Program-made: the position numbers and the translations under genes
Notes under the pieces: generated by a model
Told to the model about the DNA's origin: nothing
Seen by the model: the letters and a program-made list of their open reading frames with translations, nothing else
Database searches by the model: none
NCBI RefSeq assembly: GCF_014229095.1
Contig: NZ_JAARZC010000005.1
Span: 1-64,000, forward strand
DNA: 64,000 nt
DNA from: Listeria cossartiae subsp. cayugensis
GTDB taxonomy: Bacteria > Bacillota > Bacilli > Lactobacillales > Listeriaceae
Direction: 5' to 3'
Part shown: one piece after another, positions 46,197-56,588 of the stretch
How positions within the stretch are numbered: position 1 is the first letter of the stretch
How the letters are laid out: every line of letters begins with the position of its first letter

Positions 46197-47099
46197 TTAT
46201 AGGTCGATTTTTGTACATTCATTTAACGTAAGATTGTCATCATGAAGAAAATAATCAATTTCATTTTTAATCCCATTGAGTATCCGCTCTTCTTCGAGGA
46301 ATTTTGCCACTCGAAGCGCTCGTTGCATAAATCTTTTACCATCTTGCTTTTGGCCTAGTTTATACAGAACAATGCCCTTTTTAGCAATCGCCATGCAAAA
46401 TTGCAGGTAGTAGTGATTTTGTTTCGAGATTTTAATAGATTGCTCAATGTAATGTAAGGCGAGTTCGTATTTTTCATCGAGAATTAAGTAAGTTGCCCGA
46501 TTAACATGAAGCGAAATTTCAATCGAAAGTGTCGGGTGCAAGAAGCGATATTTTTTCAATTGTTTAATTAAGCGGTTAACGATATGCTGGGCTGTATCGT
46601 TTTCAAAGATAAAAAAGATGTTTCGTAAAATCAATATATCATTCCAAAATAGTTCATCAGATTCCGAAAGTCTATCCCAAATGTATGTTACTTTCTGTCT
46701 AGCTAACTCGAAATCATGCTCTTTTTCAACTAACAAAATGCCTTCCAGAGAAGCTTTAATATCAGAGATGAACGTATCAGTATGGTTTTCTAAATAAGCA
46801 TCGCATTTGGAAATGACATTCAGTAAAATATCGGTTTCGGAGGAAGTAATAATCTTGGAGTATAAATAAAGGATATTTTCTTTTGGAGAAGGCGTAAAAT
46901 CCCGTTTTACAAATTCGAATTCTTCTAATGTCATATTGAAATTAAGTAAAAGTTGAATAAATCGGTCCATGCTAGGCATAATTTTGTTGTTTTCAATCTT
47001 TTGATAATTAGAGCGACTAAGCGCACCTGTACAAGCTTCTTGTTGAGTTAAGTTCTTACTTTTGCGAATGAATTTTAACGTGTCACCAACAGTTTGCAT
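46197..47099 (-). CDS. Rgg/ComR-type (RRNPP) peptide-responsive regulator
   Basis: About 300 residues from ATG 47099 (ATG 47117 also possible). The N-terminal XRE helix-turn-helix is GDTLKFIRKSKNLTQQEACT followed by ALSRSNYQKIENNKIMPSMD, and then FNMTLEEFEFVKRDF, the transition typical of Rgg/GadR/MutR regulators. The rest is all helical and TPR-like (YELALHYIEQSIKISKQNHYYLQF; DGKRFMQRALRVAKFLEEE), the fold that binds short pheromones. A tiny hydrophobic peptide gene lies divergently 100 bases upstream, the classical rgg-shp arrangement. The GH31 genes beyond it are possible targets. Confidence 0.85.
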   Translation of the reverse strand: MQTVGDTLKFIRKSKNLTQQEACTGALSRSNYQKIENNKIMPSMDRFIQLLLNFNMTLEEFEFVKRDFTPSPKENILYLYSKIITSSETDILLNVISKCDAYLENHTDTFISDIKASLEGILLVEKEHDFELARQKVTYIWDRLSESDELFWNDILILRNIFFIFENDTAQHIVNRLIKQLKKYRFLHPTLSIEISLHVNRATYLILDEKYELALHYIEQSIKISKQNHYYLQFCMAIAKKGIVLYKLGQKQDGKRFMQRALRVAKFLEEERILNGIKNEIDYFLHDDNLTLNECTKIDL

Positions 47100-47199
47100 A
47101 ATAAAACACAGCTCCATATGTTCAAATTTGATGTATTTTAATTTTATGTAAGTCGTGTAGGTTAGAATTTCTGTATAGATGAAAAAGGAGGGAGAAGAC

Positions 47200-47238
47200 A
47201 TGTTAACTTTTTTAACGAGTGTTAATTGGTTATTCTAA
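47200..47238 (+). CDS. candidate peptide pheromone precursor (12 or 19 residues)
   Basis: ATG 47200 to TAA 47236-47238 encodes MLTFLTSVNWLF. A near-perfect ribosome site (AAAAAGGAGGGAG) stands seven bases ahead. An in-frame ATG at 47179 would give MKKEGEDMLTFLTSVNWLF, with a charged head and hydrophobic tail. The gene faces an Rgg-type regulator and is closed by its own hairpin terminator at 47264-47317. In streptococci, Rgg/ComR partners are such short hydrophobic peptides, some with Trp near the C-terminus (ComS of S. mutans also starts M-x-x-I-L-T-S). Function is inferred from context and sequence form. Confidence 0.6.
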   Translation: MLTFLTSVNWLF

Positions 47239-47263
47239 AGTAGTTTAAGCAAGGTCTTCTGAT

Positions 47264-47317
47264 GAGCGCAATTATTGTTTTTCCACTAAAATGGTCTGGC
47301 ATAATTGCGTATTTTTG
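47264..47317 (+). terminator. terminator after the candidate pheromone gene
   Basis: CGCAATTAT (47267-47275) pairs perfectly with ATAATTGCG (47301-47309), with a 25-base loop that has a small CCA/TGG hairpin, and is followed by TATTTTTG. It shows that something short is transcribed and ended between the regulator and the GH31 gene. Confidence 0.75.
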
Positions 47318-47375
47318 TGAAATTAGTAATAATTTGAACGATTTTAGTCTATCTGTGAAAAAATTATAACATTAT

Positions 47376-47480: not shown

Positions 47481-50400
47481 ATGAAGCGAAGAACGAGAAA
47501 ATGTAGTTTAGTGTTTATTCTTGGGATACTCATATTTAGTTGTTTAAGCAGTTTTGGAACGAATGTTTTCGCGATGGACGGGGAATATCACTCGCCATAT
47601 GGGGATGATGATTTATACACAGTTCAGCCGACAGAACGTTCACCCAGGGATCCAAAAGCCGGCGAGGATGTCATTCTTAATATTACCACTTGGCCAATTG
47701 AAGACGGGCAAAATGTATGGGTAGAGTGGACAAAGAATGGTGTCGCGCAAGAGAATGTCACAGCAGCTTACGATTATAACAGTGGCAATAACACGTACTG
47801 GAAAGCAGATTTAGGTAAATTTGAAAAGGGCGATGAAATTACTTATACAACAAAAGGTTCCACAGATGGAGGAACAGCATACGAAAGCGGCCCGTTCACG
47901 TTTTATGTAACGGACTGGGAATACGTACAGGATGTTAGCAGCGTAGAAGATAATGGCGATTCTATCACGCTAAATATGACAGCAACAGCAGGTGATTTCA
48001 CGCCGAAGTTATATCTTTCATTTGAAGATTTAGACACACTGCGTATGGAACTTTCACCAACTGGTAAAGAAACTGGACATGCTGGGAAATCTGGTTATAC
48101 GGTAGAAGATACAGCGGAAAAAGTGACCGTAACAACAGAAGATCTAAGCATCGAAATCCAAAAATCACCTTATCGTATGGAAGTTTACCAGGCGGACGGG
48201 ACTTTGCTTACAAGTGAATACACAACGGCGAATAGCCTAGGTTGGTTAACAGATGGGAAAAACGTAATCAATCAATACCAAAATAACTTTATGACACCGA
48301 GCGATGAAGCATTTTATGGTTTTGGTGAGCGTTATGACACAATTAACCAACGCGGAAAAGATGTTGAAACATACGTATACAATGAGTATCAAGATCAAGC
48401 GCAGACAGAAAGAACTTATTTAGCAGTACCATTTTTCGTGAGTGCTAATAAATACGGGATGTTCGTTAATTCCGATTTTCATTCACAGTTCCAAATGGCT
48501 TCCAAAGTAGAAGATAAATATAGCTTTGTTTTGGATAATGATGGCGATATGACGAATATGCTTGATTACTATGTTATTAGCGGGAAAGATCAAAATGACA
48601 TTGTTAACAATTACACAGATATAACAGGAAAAACAACTTTACTGCCAAAATGGGCTTTCGGGCTTTGGATGTCAGCGAATGAATGGGATAGAGATTCTGA
48701 TGTAAACTCGGCCCTTTCGAATGCCAAAGCAAATGATATTCCAGCAACAGGTTTTGTATTAGAGCAGTGGAGTGACGAAGAAACCTATTATATTTGGAAT
48801 AATGCGACCTATACAGCGAAGACAAACGGGGAAGCATTTAGCTATGACGATTTTACTTTCAACGGGAAATGGACTAATCCTAAAGCAATGGTGGATAGTG
48901 TTCATGATGCGGGTATGAATATCGTTTTATGGCAAGTTCCAGTATTAAAAGATGACAACACTGTATATGAACAACGAGATAATGATGAAGCATACATGAT
49001 AAGCCAAGGGTATAGTGCGGACGATGGAACAGGGGCGCCGTACCGAGTTCCGGCATCACAGTGGTTTGGAAATGGGATATTACTAGACTTCACTAATAAA
49101 GATGCCGTAGATTGGTGGACGTCACAAAGAGAGTATTTATTAACAGAAGTAGGGATTGATGGATTTAAAACAGATGGCGGCGAAATGGTTTGGGGACGTG
49201 ATACAACCTTCTCAAATGGCGAAAAAGGACAAGAAATGAGAAACCGTTATCCAACAGATTACGTTTCTAGTTATTTTGATTTTGCGAAAAGTATTAATCC
49301 AGAAGCAGTTTCCTTTAGTCGTTCAGGAACTTCTGGTGCGCAAAAATCAGGCATTTACTGGTCTGGAGATCAAACTTCGACATTTGATTCTTTCCAAGCA
49401 TCAGTAAAAGCTGGACTTAGTGCTTCTACATCTGGTGTTTCATACTGGGCGTGGGATATGGCAGGATTTACGGGTGATTATCCAACAGCGGAACTGTATA
49501 AACGCGCATCGGCTATGGCAGCTTTTGCACCGATTATGCAATTCCACTCGGAGAAATCAGATCCATCGCCAAGTGAAGAACGTTCACCTTGGAATGCAGT
49601 AGCTAGAACAGGTGACGAAACGATTTTACCAACGTTCCAAAAATATTTGTATACACGAATGAATTTACTTCCATATATTTATACAGCTGCAAAAGACACG
49701 GCGGACAACGGAAAATCAATGATGCGTCAAATGGCGATGGATTATCCGGAAGATATTAATGCGCGTGATTTGGATGAGCAGTATATGTTTGGCGATGATT
49801 TACTTGTAGCACCAATCGTTCAAGAAGGTCAAACAGAAAAAGAAGTTTATTTACCAGAAGGCGAATGGGTTGATATTTGGAATGGCGGGATTCATCCTGG
49901 TGGCGAAACAATTTCGTACTATGCCGATGTAGATACGCTGCCTGTATTTGCAAAAGCTGGAGCAATTATTCCGATGAACATGACAGACGGCTACCAACTT
50001 GGTCAAAATGTCGGAAATGATTTAAAATCCTATGATAATTTAACTTTCCGAGTTTATCCATCTGGAAATAGCGAATATAGTTTTTACGATGATGTAAATG
50101 GCGGAGAAATGCGCGATATTAGTGTTTCAGAAGACTTCGCGAATGAAAAAGTTTCGATTGATCTTCCGGCGATGGCTGACGAAACAACGATGCAAGTTTT
50201 CAGTACAGAACCAACAAGTGTAACAATTGACGGGGCGGATGTAGCAAAAGTGGATACGCTGGATGCATTTAACGAAGCAGCGACTGGTTATTACTATGAT
50301 ACTGTACAAAACTTGACGTACGTAAAAGCGGCAACAAAAGATGCAAAACAAGCAATTGTCTTAAATGGCGTAAATCATGCGCCGTACGAAGCAGAATTCG

Positions 50401-50756
50401 GTCATTTGACAAATGTAACTACTGCAAGTGACCATGCGGGATATACTGGTACTGGTTTTGTAGCCGGTTTTGATGCTGAAAAAGAAGCAGTAGAATTTGA
50501 TGTAGATGCAGCAGATGGCGCTTCTGATTATACGATGGAAGTTCGCTATAGTGCAGGGGTAGAAGATGCAACAAGGACCGTATATATCAATGGTAAAAAA
50601 CAACAAATTACTTTACCGAAAACAGCCGATTGGGATACTTGGAGCACGATAGAAGTTCCAGTAACGTTGCAAGATGGCAATAACCAAGTCGTATTTGATT
50701 TTGAAGCCGGCGATACAGCTGGAATCAATTTTGATCATGTAGTTTTTAAGAAGTAA
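47481..50756 (+). CDS. secreted GH31 enzyme, cycloalternan-forming 3-alpha-isomaltosyltransferase-like
   Basis: A 1091-residue exported protein (signal peptide residues 1-31: basic start, then LVFILGILIFSCLSSFG, cleavage near VFA). The GH31 barrel has FYGFGERYDTINQRG near 277, nucleophile Asp565 in GIDGFKTDGGE and acid/base Asp630 in IYWSGDQTS. A CBM35/6-like domain ends the protein (from about residue 965, HAPYEAEFGHLTN). Length and build match CtsY of Bacillus globisporus and the characterised Listeria cycloalternan-forming enzyme. It joins isomaltosyl units into the cyclic tetrasaccharide. It works with the enzyme at 50939; a cre site lies upstream. Confidence 0.88.
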   Translation: MKRRTRKCSLVFILGILIFSCLSSFGTNVFAMDGEYHSPYGDDDLYTVQPTERSPRDPKAGEDVILNITTWPIEDGQNVWVEWTKNGVAQENVTAAYDYNSGNNTYWKADLGKFEKGDEITYTTKGSTDGGTAYESGPFTFYVTDWEYVQDVSSVEDNGDSITLNMTATAGDFTPKLYLSFEDLDTLRMELSPTGKETGHAGKSGYTVEDTAEKVTVTTEDLSIEIQKSPYRMEVYQADGTLLTSEYTTANSLGWLTDGKNVINQYQNNFMTPSDEAFYGFGERYDTINQRGKDVETYVYNEYQDQAQTERTYLAVPFFVSANKYGMFVNSDFHSQFQMASKVEDKYSFVLDNDGDMTNMLDYYVISGKDQNDIVNNYTDITGKTTLLPKWAFGLWMSANEWDRDSDVNSALSNAKANDIPATGFVLEQWSDEETYYIWNNATYTAKTNGEAFSYDDFTFNGKWTNPKAMVDSVHDAGMNIVLWQVPVLKDDNTVYEQRDNDEAYMISQGYSADDGTGAPYRVPASQWFGNGILLDFTNKDAVDWWTSQREYLLTEVGIDGFKTDGGEMVWGRDTTFSNGEKGQEMRNRYPTDYVSSYFDFAKSINPEAVSFSRSGTSGAQKSGIYWSGDQTSTFDSFQASVKAGLSASTSGVSYWAWDMAGFTGDYPTAELYKRASAMAAFAPIMQFHSEKSDPSPSEERSPWNAVARTGDETILPTFQKYLYTRMNLLPYIYTAAKDTADNGKSMMRQMAMDYPEDINARDLDEQYMFGDDLLVAPIVQEGQTEKEVYLPEGEWVDIWNGGIHPGGETISYYADVDTLPVFAKAGAIIPMNMTDGYQLGQNVGNDLKSYDNLTFRVYPSGNSEYSFYDDVNGGEMRDISVSEDFANEKVSIDLPAMADETTMQVFSTEPTSVTIDGADVAKVDTLDAFNEAATGYYYDTVQNLTYVKAATKDAKQAIVLNGVNHAPYEAEFGHLTNVTTASDHAGYTGTGFVAGFDAEKEAVEFDVDAADGASDYTMEVRYSAGVEDATRTVYINGKKQQITLPKTADWDTWSTIEVPVTLQDGNNQVVFDFEAGDTAGINFDHVVFKK

Positions 50757-50938: not shown

Positions 50939-53900
50939 ATGATGAAAAAAGGTATGAAGCAAGTCTGCGTCAGTTTAGCTGTCCTCCCGCTTGTCTGGCT
51001 GAATTTAGGGATAACTCAGCCGTTACAAGTGGAAGTAAAAGCAGAAGAAACGAAGAAAAAAGAAGTGAAGAAAGAAGCAAATACAGGAGCTGCGAAACAA
51101 CTGAGTAAAGAAGAATATGCGAAATTAAGTGCGGAGGAAGGGCTTGGTAACGTACTTGAAGCGACTGTAACAGATAATGTAGTTACGCTCAAAATTGATA
51201 ATGGCGACGAGGCGGAGGATGACTATCTAGAAATTTCTCCACTGGCCAATAATTTACTTAAAGTGAATTTGCGACCTCGAAATATCGAAAATAGCGAATC
51301 AACGCCGATGATTGATCCTAATGCAACATTTACTGCGATTGGAGCAACAATTGATTTGGACTCCGATCCGATGATTATTTCAACGGAGGAGTGCACGCTT
51401 GAAATTTCCAAACAGCCAGCACGGATGACTTTCAAAGATAAGGACGGTAAAACGTTATTGTCTGAATCTGCTGATGGTGGAATTTTTGATGGAGGAGTGC
51501 GGTTTAAACGTGGCGCTTCTGACCATGTCTACGGCGCTTATGGTATTAGTTTTAGCGACGGGGATCTTGGGATGGAACGTGATAACACTGCGGCTGATAG
51601 TAGCAAAACAGCACAAGCAGGACAACAAGGTAATGCAGGTGGTCCGTTTATGTGGTCGACAGCGGGATATGGTTTGTTGGTAGATAGTGATGGCGGATAT
51701 CCGTATTCCGTTTCAGATGAAGAAAAATTGGAGTTTTACTATGGCGATACGGTAGTTGAAGGGCGCCGTTATGTGAAAGAAAATGTGGAAATGTATTTAA
51801 TGTCTGGCGAACCGGAAACGATTATGTCTTCGTATGCGGATGTAACTGGACATACACCAATGATGCCAAAATGGTCACTAGGTTTTTCTAACTTCGAGTG
51901 GGGAACTAATGAGGCTGAATTCAGAAAAAATATTGATACGTATCGTGCAAAAGGGATTCCGATTGATTCTTTCGCATTTGATTATGATTGGAAATTTTAC
52001 GGAGATCCAACGTACGGCGGGGATTACGGCGAATTTGCTTGGAATACAGACAATTTCCCGTCAGCAGCAGATACGACTTTGAAAAATGATATGGATGCAC
52101 TAGGTGTAAAAATGATTGGGATTACAAAACCTCGAGTGGTAACTACTTTGCAAGACGGGACGGAAACACAACAAGGCAAGGATGCGGAAGCAAATGGTTA
52201 CTGGTACCCGGGGCAAGAAGCTTATGAAGATTATGCTTTCCCGGTAATGGTTAGAAGTATTGATCCTTATAATACAGATGAACGCAATTGGTGGTGGTCC
52301 CATTCGGAAGATGCGCTAGATAAAGGAATTGTTGGTTGGTGGAATGATGAAACCGACAAAGTATCTTCAAATGGCGCCGATTATTGGTTTGGGAATTTCA
52401 CTACTGGCTTCACATCAGAAGCAATGTACGAAGGGCAACGAGACTATACGAATGAACGTGTTTGGCAAACTGGAAGAACTTATTATCCGGGGGCACAACG
52501 TTATTCTACATCGATTTGGTCCGGGGATATTGGCGTACAATGGAAAAAGGGAGAAGTGATTGACTGGGCAAATGGGATGCAAGAACAACCTAGTACGATG
52601 CTGTCTACTATTAATCTTGGCCAAACAAAATGGGGCATGGATACAGGTGGCTTTAATGCGAATTCTGGACAAGTTTTAAATCCAGATCCAGAACTTTATA
52701 GTCGCTGGATGGAATTTAGTTCACTTGTTCCGGTTTTCCGTACACATGGGAACGATAACCAGCAACGCCAACCTTGGTATTATGGTGGAACGGCAGAAGA
52801 AATTGCTAAAAGTGCTATGACTTGGCGCTATTCGATGATTCCATACATGTACGCTTATGAACGCCAAGCTTATGATTCTGGCGTTGGACTCGTTCAGCCG
52901 CTTACTTTTGATAATCCTACCGATGAAAATGTAGTGAATTTGACGGATGAATGGATGTTTGGGGATGCGATTTTAGCAGCGCCAGTTTTAGAAGAAGGAG
53001 CAGGTTCCAGAGATATTTATTTACCTGCTGGAACGTGGATCGATTATAATCGCGGCGATGTTTATGATGGCAACCAAACAATTAATTATGAAGTAAATGA
53101 CGAAGACTGGACGGACGTACCGATGTTTGTTAAAGAAGGTGCGATTATACCAATGCAACAACCGCAAAATTATATTGGCGAATCCGCAGTCGAAACAGTT
53201 TACTTGGACACTTTTGCAGCAGAAAAAGAAACTTCTTTTACACATTATGACGATGACGGGAAATCTTTTGATTACGAAAAAGACACCTATTTAAAACAAA
53301 AGATGACCACTTCTAGTACAGCCGATGCTACTACTTTTACCATTGGTGCGAAAGAAGGAAGTTTTAAAGCTGATACAGAAAATTACATTATCAAACTACA
53401 CGGAAATGCTGCTGGAAATGTGCAAGTAAATGGCGCAGACAGTAAAGTATACGATGATTTATCTGCACTCGAAAATGCAGATGGCGGCGGATATGCAGTC
53501 GGAAGCGATATCTACGGGGCAGTAACTTATGTTAAAGTACCTGCTCAAGCAAGCGAAGACACAGTCATTAAAACATCTGGTTCGATAACAGTTGACCAAT
53601 CCGGCACATACGAAATGGAAAATGGCTCTAGTTTTGCAGCGACCGTTGCTGATAAACCAGTCACAGAAAAAACGTATGTAGATGGCTATGATACAGATGG
53701 CGCGGGAACAACTATTTATGCAAACGTCAAAGACTCTGGTGACTACAACGTTGATTTAACGTATAAAAATGCATCTAGCGAGGACCAAGCGCTAAGTATT
53801 TTCGTCAACGGAGAATATGTGAAACAAACTACATTAAAACCAGCGACAGATTGGACCGTTGCACCCGAAACATTACCTCTTTCAGCTGGGAAAAATAGTA

Positions 53901-54874
53901 TTTCGTATAAAGTAGTGACAGATACTGGTGACAAAGCGGATCAAGTCTCACTGGATAAAGTTACTATTGGTTTTACGCCAACTGTAGCAAAAGTAGAAGC
54001 TGAAGAAGCAAGTCTTGCAGGTACTTTGAAAGTAGCAAATGATCACTGGTTTTATAGTGGAGAAGGTTTTGTCGGCGGATTTGGAACAGCAGGGGATGAA
54101 ATCAAATTTGAAGTAGATGTACCAGCAGACGGTGAATATGTATTAAATACACGTACGGCTAACGGAACTAGTATGCCACAAACGCTTGATTTATACACAA
54201 ATGGCGATTACAATTCGCGCGTAACATTCCCTTCTGAAGGCGAAAACTGGAATATCTGGTCAGATACAGAAACAGCAGTGAATTTAAAAGCAGGTACGAA
54301 TAAAATTACGTTCTTAATGGACGGAGAGTCGACAGGGAATATTAATATGGATAGAATTCTAGTTTCCGCTGAACCGATTAATTCTCCTGTTCAGTCAGAA
54401 ATGAATTTACTTGATAATGGCGGATTTGAGCGTGACGCTGCAGCAACAACGAATTGGGTAGAGTCGCATCCAGACGGTCAGGACAAGGCTTATGGCGTTG
54501 ATAGTGGTTCGGGTGTAAATCCTCCAGAATCACCAGCATTTGGTAAGCAGAGCGCTTATTTCTATCTACCAGGGGCTTATACACAAACTTTATCGCAACA
54601 AATAGCGGTTCCAACGAATAACGCAAATTATGACGTCGAAGCATGGGTCAAAGTAAGTGAAGACGACGCAGCCAAAGCACAAATGATTGTCAACAATTTT
54701 GATGATAGCGACGGGCAAACGATTGACTTGGTGGCGGATAATGTTTGGCATTATGTAACGATTAAAGATGTCAAAGTCACAACCGGTAATATAAATACAA
54801 GTTTCCAGATGGATTCTCCGGGTGGAACAAGTATTCATATTGATAATGTGCGCGTTATGCCATCTGCGGAATAA
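50939..54874 (+). CDS. secreted GH31 enzyme, 6-alpha-glucosyltransferase-like
   Basis: A 1311-residue exported protein (signal peptide to about residue 35, VEVKA). The GH31 barrel spans roughly 80-740, with nucleophile Asp470 in VGWWNDETDK and acid/base Asp530 in SIWSGDIGVQW. Three beta-sandwich modules follow: two CBM35/6-like (from about 885 and 1020) and a last CBM4-like one (MNLLDNGGFERDAAATTNW near 1155). Size and order match CtsZ of Bacillus globisporus, which makes alpha-isomaltosyl-oligosaccharides from starch, the substrate for the 47481 enzyme. Start ATG 50939 or 50942 follows GGGGCGAG. Confidence 0.85.
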   Translation: MMKKGMKQVCVSLAVLPLVWLNLGITQPLQVEVKAEETKKKEVKKEANTGAAKQLSKEEYAKLSAEEGLGNVLEATVTDNVVTLKIDNGDEAEDDYLEISPLANNLLKVNLRPRNIENSESTPMIDPNATFTAIGATIDLDSDPMIISTEECTLEISKQPARMTFKDKDGKTLLSESADGGIFDGGVRFKRGASDHVYGAYGISFSDGDLGMERDNTAADSSKTAQAGQQGNAGGPFMWSTAGYGLLVDSDGGYPYSVSDEEKLEFYYGDTVVEGRRYVKENVEMYLMSGEPETIMSSYADVTGHTPMMPKWSLGFSNFEWGTNEAEFRKNIDTYRAKGIPIDSFAFDYDWKFYGDPTYGGDYGEFAWNTDNFPSAADTTLKNDMDALGVKMIGITKPRVVTTLQDGTETQQGKDAEANGYWYPGQEAYEDYAFPVMVRSIDPYNTDERNWWWSHSEDALDKGIVGWWNDETDKVSSNGADYWFGNFTTGFTSEAMYEGQRDYTNERVWQTGRTYYPGAQRYSTSIWSGDIGVQWKKGEVIDWANGMQEQPSTMLSTINLGQTKWGMDTGGFNANSGQVLNPDPELYSRWMEFSSLVPVFRTHGNDNQQRQPWYYGGTAEEIAKSAMTWRYSMIPYMYAYERQAYDSGVGLVQPLTFDNPTDENVVNLTDEWMFGDAILAAPVLEEGAGSRDIYLPAGTWIDYNRGDVYDGNQTINYEVNDEDWTDVPMFVKEGAIIPMQQPQNYIGESAVETVYLDTFAAEKETSFTHYDDDGKSFDYEKDTYLKQKMTTSSTADATTFTIGAKEGSFKADTENYIIKLHGNAAGNVQVNGADSKVYDDLSALENADGGGYAVGSDIYGAVTYVKVPAQASEDTVIKTSGSITVDQSGTYEMENGSSFAATVADKPVTEKTYVDGYDTDGAGTTIYANVKDSGDYNVDLTYKNASSEDQALSIFVNGEYVKQTTLKPATDWTVAPETLPLSAGKNSISYKVVTDTGDKADQVSLDKVTIGFTPTVAKVEAEEASLAGTLKVANDHWFYSGEGFVGGFGTAGDEIKFEVDVPADGEYVLNTRTANGTSMPQTLDLYTNGDYNSRVTFPSEGENWNIWSDTETAVNLKAGTNKITFLMDGESTGNINMDRILVSAEPINSPVQSEMNLLDNGGFERDAAATTNWVESHPDGQDKAYGVDSGSGVNPPESPAFGKQSAYFYLPGAYTQTLSQQIAVPTNNANYDVEAWVKVSEDDAAKAQMIVNNFDDSDGQTIDLVADNVWHYVTIKDVKVTTGNINTSFQMDSPGGTSIHIDNVRVMPSAE

Positions 54875-54925: not shown

Positions 54926-55987
54926 ATGAAAAATTTGTGTAAATTATTTCTAGTAGTTAGTATGATTATCATTGGCGTCATTTCTTTTAAAACAATCGAT
55001 GTAAGTGCGTCCGTGACAGATATTTACCCATTACCAGCCAGAATAATTGATGTTTTTCCAGATGAGAATTTAGCAAAAGATATGGTGGAGAATTTTGGTA
55101 AAACAAATGTGACAGATGTAATTACCCAAGATGATGTAGATGCAGTGACGTCTTTAGGGTTGGGTTATTTTAGCGATTATCTAACGGACGAAGATTTACA
55201 AATGCTGGGAAATGCTTACTTTACAAATGTAAACAATATCATGATTTATCCTACTCAAACGATGTTTACAGGTTTTCCCGATTTACCAACCTTGCCCAAA
55301 TTAGATACTTTAAGAGCGGAATGGGTCCAAACATCCGACATACTAGCTGCAAACATTACAGTACCCGATTATCAAAACTACCCAGAGTTAACGTATCTGG
55401 ATCTTAGTGGTCGAACTATTGTTGGCGGCTTACCAGATTTTTCTAATATTCCTAAGCTCGAAACCTTGTTGATGAGCAATTGTGGACTCGCTTCAGAAGA
55501 CGTTCCAGATTTTACAAACTTGAAAAACTTGCAGAAAGTAAATTTCCAAACGAACCAATTTAGAACAGAAATGACTGATTTTACTCATTTGGATAGTTTG
55601 GTAAGTATGGATTTAAGCTATAATTATTTAAATGTGTTGCCACCTACCATTGTGGATAAAGTAATCTTACTAGGTCAAATTGGAACTTTACCAGATCAAA
55701 ATGTTGTTTTTGGTGAGGATACAACTATTACTTTACCAATTTATACGCAACTGGATGATTTAGGCCGAATTAGTGGTTTTCAAGAAGTTTGGATTCATGA
55801 TTCAAATGAGAAAGAAATTTACAACGCGTATGCAGTAGATTACGACGAAGTGACGAAGCAAATCATTATACCGACAAGTACCCTTGATAAAGGCGAATAC
55901 ACCATTGGAATCGATTTTAATGGCATAGAGCCTTATGTAGAAGAAGGCGAAGTTATGAGTTACTCGGTAAAAATAACGATTAATTAA
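54926..55987 (+). CDS. secreted internalin-like LRR protein without wall anchor
   Basis: A 353-residue protein with signal peptide (residues 1-28, LFLVVSMIIIGVISF). The internalin cap follows (YPLPARIIDVFPDENLAKDM), then a few LRR units (LTYLDLSGRTIVGGLPDFSN; LETLLMSNCGLASEDVPDFTNL; LVSMDLSYNYLNVLPP), and an Ig-like end. The LRR block is short and partly degenerate. There is no LPXTG motif, GW module or C-terminal membrane helix, so it is probably released, like the InlC class. It follows the GH31 pair with AAGGAGGAG before the ATG and may be co-transcribed. A PrfA box is not visible at its start. Confidence 0.85.
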   Translation: MKNLCKLFLVVSMIIIGVISFKTIDVSASVTDIYPLPARIIDVFPDENLAKDMVENFGKTNVTDVITQDDVDAVTSLGLGYFSDYLTDEDLQMLGNAYFTNVNNIMIYPTQTMFTGFPDLPTLPKLDTLRAEWVQTSDILAANITVPDYQNYPELTYLDLSGRTIVGGLPDFSNIPKLETLLMSNCGLASEDVPDFTNLKNLQKVNFQTNQFRTEMTDFTHLDSLVSMDLSYNYLNVLPPTIVDKVILLGQIGTLPDQNVVFGEDTTITLPIYTQLDDLGRISGFQEVWIHDSNEKEIYNAYAVDYDEVTKQIIIPTSTLDKGEYTIGIDFNGIEPYVEEGEVMSYSVKITIN

Positions 55988-56102: not shown

Positions 56103-56469
56103 GGGGATGTTACGGATTCGACAGGGATAGTTCGAGCTTGAGTTGCGAGTCGGGGGGATCGTCCTCGTTATCAACGTCAAAGCCAATAATAACTGGCAAA
56201 GAAAAACAAAACCTAGCTTTCGCTGCCTAATAAGCAGTAGCATAGCTGATCCTCCGTGCATCGCCCATGTGCTACGGTAAGGGTCTCACTCTAAGTGGGC
56301 TACACTAGTTAATCTCCGTCTGAGGTTAAATAGAAGAGCTTAATCAGACTAGCTGAATGGAAGCCTGTTACCGGGCCGATGTTTATGCGAAATGCTAATA
56401 CGGTGACTACGCTCGTAGATATTTAAGTGCCGATATTTCTGGACGTGGGTTCGACTCCCACCATCTCCA
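56103..56469 (+). ncRNA. ssrA: transfer-messenger RNA (tmRNA)
   Basis: The 367-base RNA opens GGGGATGTTACGGATTCGAC and ends in GGGTTCGACTCCCACCATCTCCA. GGGGATG and CATCTCC form the acceptor stem, and the T-arm GTGGGTTCGACTCCCAC is intact. The tag frame is at 56195-56227 (GGC AAA GAA AAA ...), giving GKEKQNLAFAA plus the tRNA-borne Ala, followed by two stops. It rescues stalled ribosomes with SmpB and marks proteins for ClpXP. The gene is uninterrupted, so no mobile element has used this common integration site here. Confidence 0.98.
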
Positions 56470-56588
56470 TAAAATGAAAAAAGTTATGAATGGCTTTATG
56501 AAGCTGTTTGTAGCTTTTTTTATTAGCAGTATTTAAGTCCAAGGGTAACGATGAAAATAAACAAAGTGACATTATAGGGAGTCTGTCA

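Follow-up and report, generated by a model that had tools for sequence, protein, structure and literature searches.

SHPs, which pair with the receptors Rgg2 and Rgg3, are made as longer propeptides (about 20 or more residues) with a basic N-terminus. Type II XIP of the ComR-ComS system carries a double Trp near its C-terminus, and a palindrome lies before the ComR promoter. Peptide signalling is likewise known in L. monocytogenes from pPplA, which is derived from the signal peptide of a lipoprotein, and from Agr, whose signal is a cyclic peptide; to our knowledge, no mini-gene dedicated to either signal stands next to an Rgg receptor. Listeriaceae are placed in Lactobacillales by GTDB, not by NCBI.

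In the available text of two reports, the Rgg/ComR/PrgX branch is said to be limited to Lactobacillales (PMC9765709, PMC12700828). The leaderless peptides (LCPs) of RopB-type receptors are 8-10 residues long with few exceptions allowed, and LCP pairs have already been reported in Bacillaceae and Staphylococcaceae (PMC10518010). The available main text of that report contains no occurrence of Listeria, and Listeriaceae are outside the six families named in it. L. monocytogenes encodes the Rgg-like Lmo0833 and four more such proteins, and the accessible part of the paper describing them names no peptide adjacent to these proteins (PMC4379056). Two Rgg-type regulators of this species, Lmo0325 and Lmo0326, have been linked with chitinases and with the internalin-like Lmo0327 (PMC5666140). 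Among the matches listed from the open-access literature, none describes a peptide gene dedicated to a Listeria receptor of the Rgg type. The locus described here appears to be a system for signalling between cells, one for which we know of no earlier description in this intensively studied genus.

The peptide gene and its divergent regulator

The locus lies in a stretch of 64,000 nt from Listeria cossartiae subsp. cayugensis (contig NZ_JAARZC010000005.1), hereafter the window. A small rightward unit, with a 12-codon gene, sits between a leftward regulator gene and a rightward GH31 gene (Table 1). Ordinary annotation would likely miss a gene this short. Elsewhere in the window, a run of phage-like genes at about 149-23236, recognised from translations only, is a probable prophage, and a tmRNA gene (56103-56472; RF00023) is the only Rfam match.

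Table 1. Features of the regulator-peptide locus and of the downstream cluster (window positions).
Feature	Position	Strand	Remarks
Rgg-type regulator, 300 aa	46197..47099	-	XRE HTH and Rgg_C/TPR-like peptide-binding domain; start ATG 47099
Operator-like box GTTCAAATTTGATGTAT	47120..47136	+	Contains perfect palindrome TCAAATTTGA; conservation, copies in relatives
-10 element TAGAAT	47163..47168	+	43 nt after first base of box; no recognisable -35
Shine-Dalgarno AAGGAGG	47185..47191	+	8 nt 5' of ATG; present in 13/13 regulator-bearing genomes
12-codon peptide gene MLTFLTSVNWLF	47200..47238	+	ATG 47200, TAA 47236-47238; C-terminus S[IV]NW[LI]F conserved
Terminator-like hairpin with T5 tail	47266..47316	+	3' of peptide gene; stem about 47266-47310, T5 47312-47316
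GH31 enzyme, candidate downstream target	47481..50756	+	Pfam Lmo2446-like_N; PDB 4kmq, 5f7u
Second GH31 alpha-glucosidase, candidate downstream target	50939..54874	+	CBM35 domains
Internalin-like LRR protein	54926..55987	+	Internalin_N PF12354 (2.2e-13), LRR_4

The regulator shows the architecture of the Rgg branch of RRNPPA proteins, with an N-terminal HTH and a C-terminal TPR-like peptide-binding domain. Pfam matches include Rgg_C (2.4e-10), HTH_19 and HTH_3, and the NCBIfam model RGG_Cterm was matched at 36.2 bits, just below its cut-off of 36.9. PDB profile matches are to Lmo0325, Rgg2, Rgg3 and PlcR. An AlphaFold model (pLDDT 87.5) was compared by Foldseek and matched Lmo0325, Rgg2, Rgg3, PlcR, Rgg144, ComR and PrgX, with TM scores of about 0.45-0.60 and large overall rmsd. 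The regulator is therefore predicted to have the Rgg/PlcR/ComR fold, and these domain, profile and fold matches bear out the RRNPP-type regulator that a first, sequence-only reading of the window had placed beside the peptide gene.

An ortholog of the regulator is present at 83-100% identity in 12 of 25 Listeria genomes, the genome under study counted, and a thirteenth (G003) carries one at 46%. Identity is 98% for L. marthii and 82% for L. immobilis. From the gene order, and with support from the adjoining Lmo2446 match, we take the regulator to be the ortholog of lmo2447. In the available text of two studies, lmo2447, named Rgg/GadR/MutR, is 10.8-fold up in a rex deletion (PMC8389512) and is the most down-regulated gene upon desiccation (PMC6987299).

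The peptide frame, its start, stop, SD sequence and 12-codon length are all intact in the alignment of the 12 orthologous loci, with the consensus ML[T/N][F/L][L/F/V][T/K]S[I/V]NW[L/I]F. At the equivalent position in G003, between the GH31 gene and the regulator, which there lies on the same strand, is a 13-codon version, MLATILESINWLF, with an SD match of 7/7. The ORF from ATG 47200 that had been proposed is thus confirmed, and so is its near-ideal SD sequence; none of the frameshifts or stop codons that would have spoken against it occurs in the 12 orthologous loci. The longer start that had been offered as an alternative, ATG 47179 (MKKEGEDM...), was rejected: it is present in 8 of the 12 orthologs and absent from 4, which leaves the 12-residue product as the conserved form. 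A single Trp is found in the peptide of each of the 13 genomes. A search pattern that joins SD, ATG and the ending N-W-x-F has a single match in each of the 13 regulator-bearing genomes and none in the 12 Listeria genomes counted as regulator-free, that is, without this ortholog, in which more distant Rgg proteins may occur; the reversed control also gives none.

Across the 12 orthologs, 67% of the peptide columns are invariant, compared with 68% in the SD region, 43% at 47239-47266, 41% in the hairpin and 18% at 47308-47340. The peptide frame is thus better conserved than these downstream stretches, but differs little from the GH31 coding start (62%). Variable sites at codon positions 1, 2 and 3 number 3/2/7, a weak bias (binomial P 0.066). 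Against the G003 copy (L013), the C-terminal 8 codons are more alike as protein than 8 random changes would leave them (P 0.00015 when judged by BLOSUM score and 0.0034 when judged by identity). The combined P for five family pairs is 1.3e-5 by score, with two of the five singly non-significant and a sixth pair (L029/L093) omitted since its lengths differ.

These comparisons bear on the possibility that the unit is a small regulatory RNA or a 5' leader in which the ORF is incidental. An undescribed RNA is possible because the Rfam scan of the window found only the tmRNA, and a hairpin with partly invariant columns does lie 3' of the ORF. We nevertheless regard an RNA of this kind as very unlikely, since the likeness to the G003 copy is at the protein level while the flanks are unlike by eye, the SD spacing is conserved and there are many paralogous peptide genes. 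A type I toxin was set aside, as a matter of judgement, by peptide length and regulator linkage. A stem pairing GAAGAC at the start codon with GUCUUC downstream was rejected as a translation switch: it occurs in a 150-nt fold with a z of only -1.4, and its pairing is not clearly preserved, by eye, in L009-L012.

The box, the hairpin and the candidate targets

Columns 47120-47149 are 87% invariant across the 12 orthologs. At box offset 43, the hexamer TAGAAT, TAGTAT or TAGACT is found in 12/12 ortholog peptide promoters; the peptide promoter of G003 has the box and no clear -10 at that offset. With the box centred near -46 (start near 47174) and a -10 without a -35, the promoter layout suggests that the regulator acts as an activator.

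The exact 17-mer box has no second copy at up to 2 mismatches in the genome under study, where a degenerate form gives two further two-mismatch matches, both within long ORFs. A genome-wide regulon in this genome was rejected, the focal copy being the sole one of the exact box at up to 2 mismatches; a wider regulon rests on the comparison with related genomes. At up to 1 mismatch, the degenerate box marks the peptide promoter in 13/13 regulator-bearing genomes and has 8 extra matches in them. Six of these are upstream of LRR genes (one each in G010, G014 and G016 and three in G020), and a seventh, in G003, precedes a remnant in which 26 residues match an LRR C-terminus at 50% (E 2e-4). The eighth (L149, G015) is not upstream of an LRR gene. 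Two box matches in regulator-free genomes are within or beside unrelated genes. In G003 (contig C31; L133/L117), the regulator has the opposite orientation to that in the other species and the extra box lies beside smpB, 5' of the LRR-gene remnant; the switch locus is locally rearranged here.

The six LRR promoters each have an extended -10 (TGTTAnnnT) that begins 40 nt from the box start and places its hexamer at 43, the same box-to-hexamer distance as in the 12 ortholog peptide promoters. The TG extension is absent from the peptide promoters; the position of the -10 is common to both. When two mismatches are considered, the 13 genomes hold 48 box matches, of which 6 are upstream of LRR genes with the extended -10 at offset 39-40 in 6/6, compared with 0/42 for the others, a contrast weaker than the raw counts because the extended -10 rule was formulated after the sites were seen and there are probable ortholog pairs among the LRR sites (e.g., L147/L148, L180/L196 and L205/L207). 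The other 42 include 31 that fall inside open frames of at least 120 codons, and also L182, whose box is within a frame that matches LRR proteins weakly, on the opposite strand. At one of the 6 LRR sites, L211, the LRR protein is only 24% identical.

The window's own LRR protein is 27-38% identical to those of the six box-associated LRR genes, and Internalin_N is carried by the three LRR proteins scanned, this one included. The box is read as a real operator, with a putative regulon of the peptide gene plus internalin-like genes; that the regulator binds it we infer from position and co-occurrence. The earlier guess that LRR genes are controlled by this system gains independent support, because related species have the operator-like box in front of internalin-like LRR genes elsewhere in their genomes.

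The first GH31 protein matches the cycloalternan-forming enzyme Lmo2446, and the window LRR gene is third in a GH31-GH31-LRR cluster 3' of the peptide gene. This cluster may be driven from the peptide promoter across the hairpin or from a promoter of its own. The peptide-GH31 order is retained in the 12 orthologs and in G003. Between the two lies the hairpin. Its 55-nt segment has a folding energy of -16.1 kcal/mol and a z of -4.1 (0/200 shuffles as good), but the z varies with the stretch taken (82 nt, z -0.8, 41/200; 150 nt, z -1.4, 15/200). The terminator said to follow the stop codon is partly upheld: a hairpin with T5 is present, but it contains internal loops, is missing from the list of a simple terminator scan of the window and has a stretch-dependent z. 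By eye, the T tract is lost in L011, and a different hairpin with a TATTTTTG tail takes its place in L013. No second box precedes GH31 in the window at up to 3 mismatches. Control of GH31 in the window stays a candidate because a hairpin with a T-run separates it from the peptide gene; the cycloalternan GH31 cluster is perhaps under the same circuit.

The succession of peptide gene, hairpin with T-run and GH31 on one strand, with its order held across the orthologs and G003, would also suit a cis-acting leader peptide or attenuator, in which ribosomes on the short frame would determine how often transcription passes the hairpin and enters the GH31 operon. Such a role is very unlikely. At paralogous loci such as L017, L042 and L051, the stretch inspected behind the peptide gene contains no ORF of at least 70 codons on that strand, the peptide sequence co-varies with the receptor and has no run of one amino acid, and the loss of the T-run in L011 also argues against it. 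Further 5' of GH31, the block 47341-47372 around TATCTGTGAAAAAATTATAACATTATGT is 72% invariant in 12 species and is perhaps the GH31 promoter or the site of another regulator. It was considered as a GH31 promoter, Rex or cre site; the half-site spacing differs between species (by eye).

Candidate regulator-peptide pairs across Listeriaceae

The regions upstream of Rgg-type regulator genes were scanned for divergent ATG ORFs 8-25 codons long and preceded by an SD that matches over 5 or more contiguous bases. The 108 complete regulators (at least 250 aa; fragmentary ones excluded) gave 95 distinct sequences and 51 clusters at 70%, of which 50 were scanned, one having been dropped for its short upstream stretch. 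Such an ORF was found at 20 of the 50 Rgg clusters, the focal one included, versus 5/124 among the control genes (Fisher 1e-8). In 100 shuffles, the mean was 2.0 clusters and the maximum 6. Hydrophobic ORFs at 80-140 nt from the regulator start occur at 15/50 clusters versus 0/124 control genes. Widening the range to 8-32 aa raises the count to 24/50. The divergent placement noticed at the focal locus therefore recurs in the family, although at least three of the 20 strict matches (L079, L033 and L041) are not believed. The strict rule gives no divergent mini-ORF at 30/50 clusters.

Peptide similarity tracks receptor similarity (r 0.57 over 18 hand-chosen pairs, 0/5000 permutations). A tree of the 50 regulators has one supported group of 10, 9 of them without a peptide, and 14 other peptide-less rows that are scattered; its labels (22 LCP-like, 5 SHP-like and 23 none) are hand-set, admit ORFs with a 4-base SD or a GTG start (L028, L033, L037, L049 and L082) and count the strict matches L079 and L041 as none. 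Examples of the peptides at Listeriaceae Rgg loci are MLASVLVYFIIV and MLASVFAYFIIA, from different genera, and MLSSITVMIYYIFS and MFSSITVLINFIFN. The genome under study has three more Rgg loci with weaker-SD candidates: L028 (MFSLFTAPLALLCGHWWV), L033 (MTALIFWILGG) and L037 (MNLLLMFIGTNGHGHLG).

Several loci depart from the single-peptide arrangement. At L025 (G010:C13, 1219-1402, minus strand), three tandem SD-led ORFs with WW near the end face an Rgg gene (MTGLIQVLIQWWM, MNKNLGFILYSNWWIG and MKPCFQKWGHWWM), resembling a multi-pheromone version of the ComS type. L107 (G028:C32) has two tandem mini-genes divergent from the regulator, ending RIWDRG and RIWDRD (the second by eye). SHP-like genes of 27 residues (MKK...GG) lie about 95-105 nt upstream of Rgg at L094, L095 and L096, in another Listeriaceae genus, and at L049 in G010; these look like canonical SHP systems outside streptococci. 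Also in G010, two different Rgg-peptide pairs (L025 and L047) precede homologous genes starting MSQPTQDGKYIQSIKENIHQIL. Order-level matches came from 94 genomes, Listeriaceae included, and the order-level peptide scan covered 13 loci; at 6 of these (L118, L119, L121, L123, L126 and L130), ORFs of 22-26 residues ending WF[VIM]GG or WF[VIM]GGGG lie beside the regulator.

It is fairly likely that the Listeriaceae have a diversified and so far undescribed set of ultra-short pheromone genes (about 12-20 residues), several per genome and each facing its own Rgg receptor. In this reading, one palindromic box, spread to or kept at internalin-like loci in several species, would let the focal 12-mer coordinate cycloalternan metabolism with internalin-like surface proteins.

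Proposed circuit and comparison with known systems

The 12-codon frame probably encodes the cognate ligand of the divergent Rgg protein in an autoinducing, leaderless-pheromone activator circuit driving internalin-like LRR genes. The pairing of peptide gene and receptor, also put forward by the sequence-only reading, is backed by conservation, co-occurrence (13/13 vs 0/12), the recurring arrangement, co-variation and the receptor fold. In the proposed circuit, the peptide would leave the cell without a leader, either at full length or cut down to roughly its C-terminal S-[IV]-N-W-L-F, perhaps via an EcsAB/PptAB-type exporter, re-enter through an oligopeptide permease and bind the TPR-like pocket of the regulator. 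The liganded regulator would then bind the box and activate promoters without a -35, both that of the peptide gene, giving autoinduction, and those of internalin-like LRR genes; the GH31-GH31-LRR cluster might be activated by read-through or otherwise. One EcsB and five SBP_bac_5 proteins are encoded in the genome under study, although such proteins are not specific support for signalling.

The peptide is thus a putative secreted signal. It could instead bind the regulator within the producing cell and never be exported, as a private autoregulatory switch. Its 12 residues have no leader or charged N-terminus, no exporter or peptidase was recognised among the translations beside the pair, and the sequence evidence for the pairing fits an intracellular ligand equally well. 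An intracellular ligand is still unlikely, because, according to the available text of PMC10518010, the leaderless peptides known for receptors of this superfamily exert their effect from outside the cell, and relatives in the same family carry SHP-like, propeptide-like genes of 27-31 aa.

Listeria is a model pathogen genus, and a pheromone circuit of the proposed kind, if true, would supply lmo2447-type regulators with ligand, operator and regulon and would give a testable switch for a group of internalin-like genes. Genomes with several diverging pairs would lend themselves to research on how pheromones and their receptors co-evolve.

Among described systems, Lmo0325/Lmo0326-Lmo0327 of L. 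monocytogenes offers a parallel, in that Rgg regulators are associated with an LRR surface protein. Rgg2/Rgg3-SHP systems are alike in receptor fold and in the adjacent peptide gene. The Rgg-SHP arrangement that had been invoked for the locus is retained in the divergent pair, but the conserved product of 12 residues is not a longer propeptide, its MKKEGEDM extension occurring in 8/12 orthologs only, and is nearer to the leaderless class. ComR-ComS/XIP shares the receptor fold, a short hydrophobic Trp-containing peptide and a palindrome before the promoter. The earlier likening to ComS/XIP fits in hydrophobicity and in a Trp near the end; however, the focal 12-mer has one Trp, not two, and comes nearer to the leaderless peptides of RopB. 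Paralogs L025 and L028 do carry WW peptides. No competence genes were recognised beside the focal pair.

RopB-LCP (SIP) likewise combines an Rgg-type receptor with an often divergent, ultrasmall, SD-led gene for a hydrophobic leaderless peptide and with effectors nearby, as given in the available text of PMC10518010 and PMC13361665. The focal gene shares these LCP traits, being an ultrasmall adjacent ORF with a strong SD and a hydrophobic, aromatic product. At 12 residues, and 13 in G003, the peptide is longer than the usual 8-10 (PMC10518010), and the candidate targets differ, being internalin-like and cycloalternan genes. By analogy, RopB with its leaderless peptide would be the closest working model for the Listeria locus.
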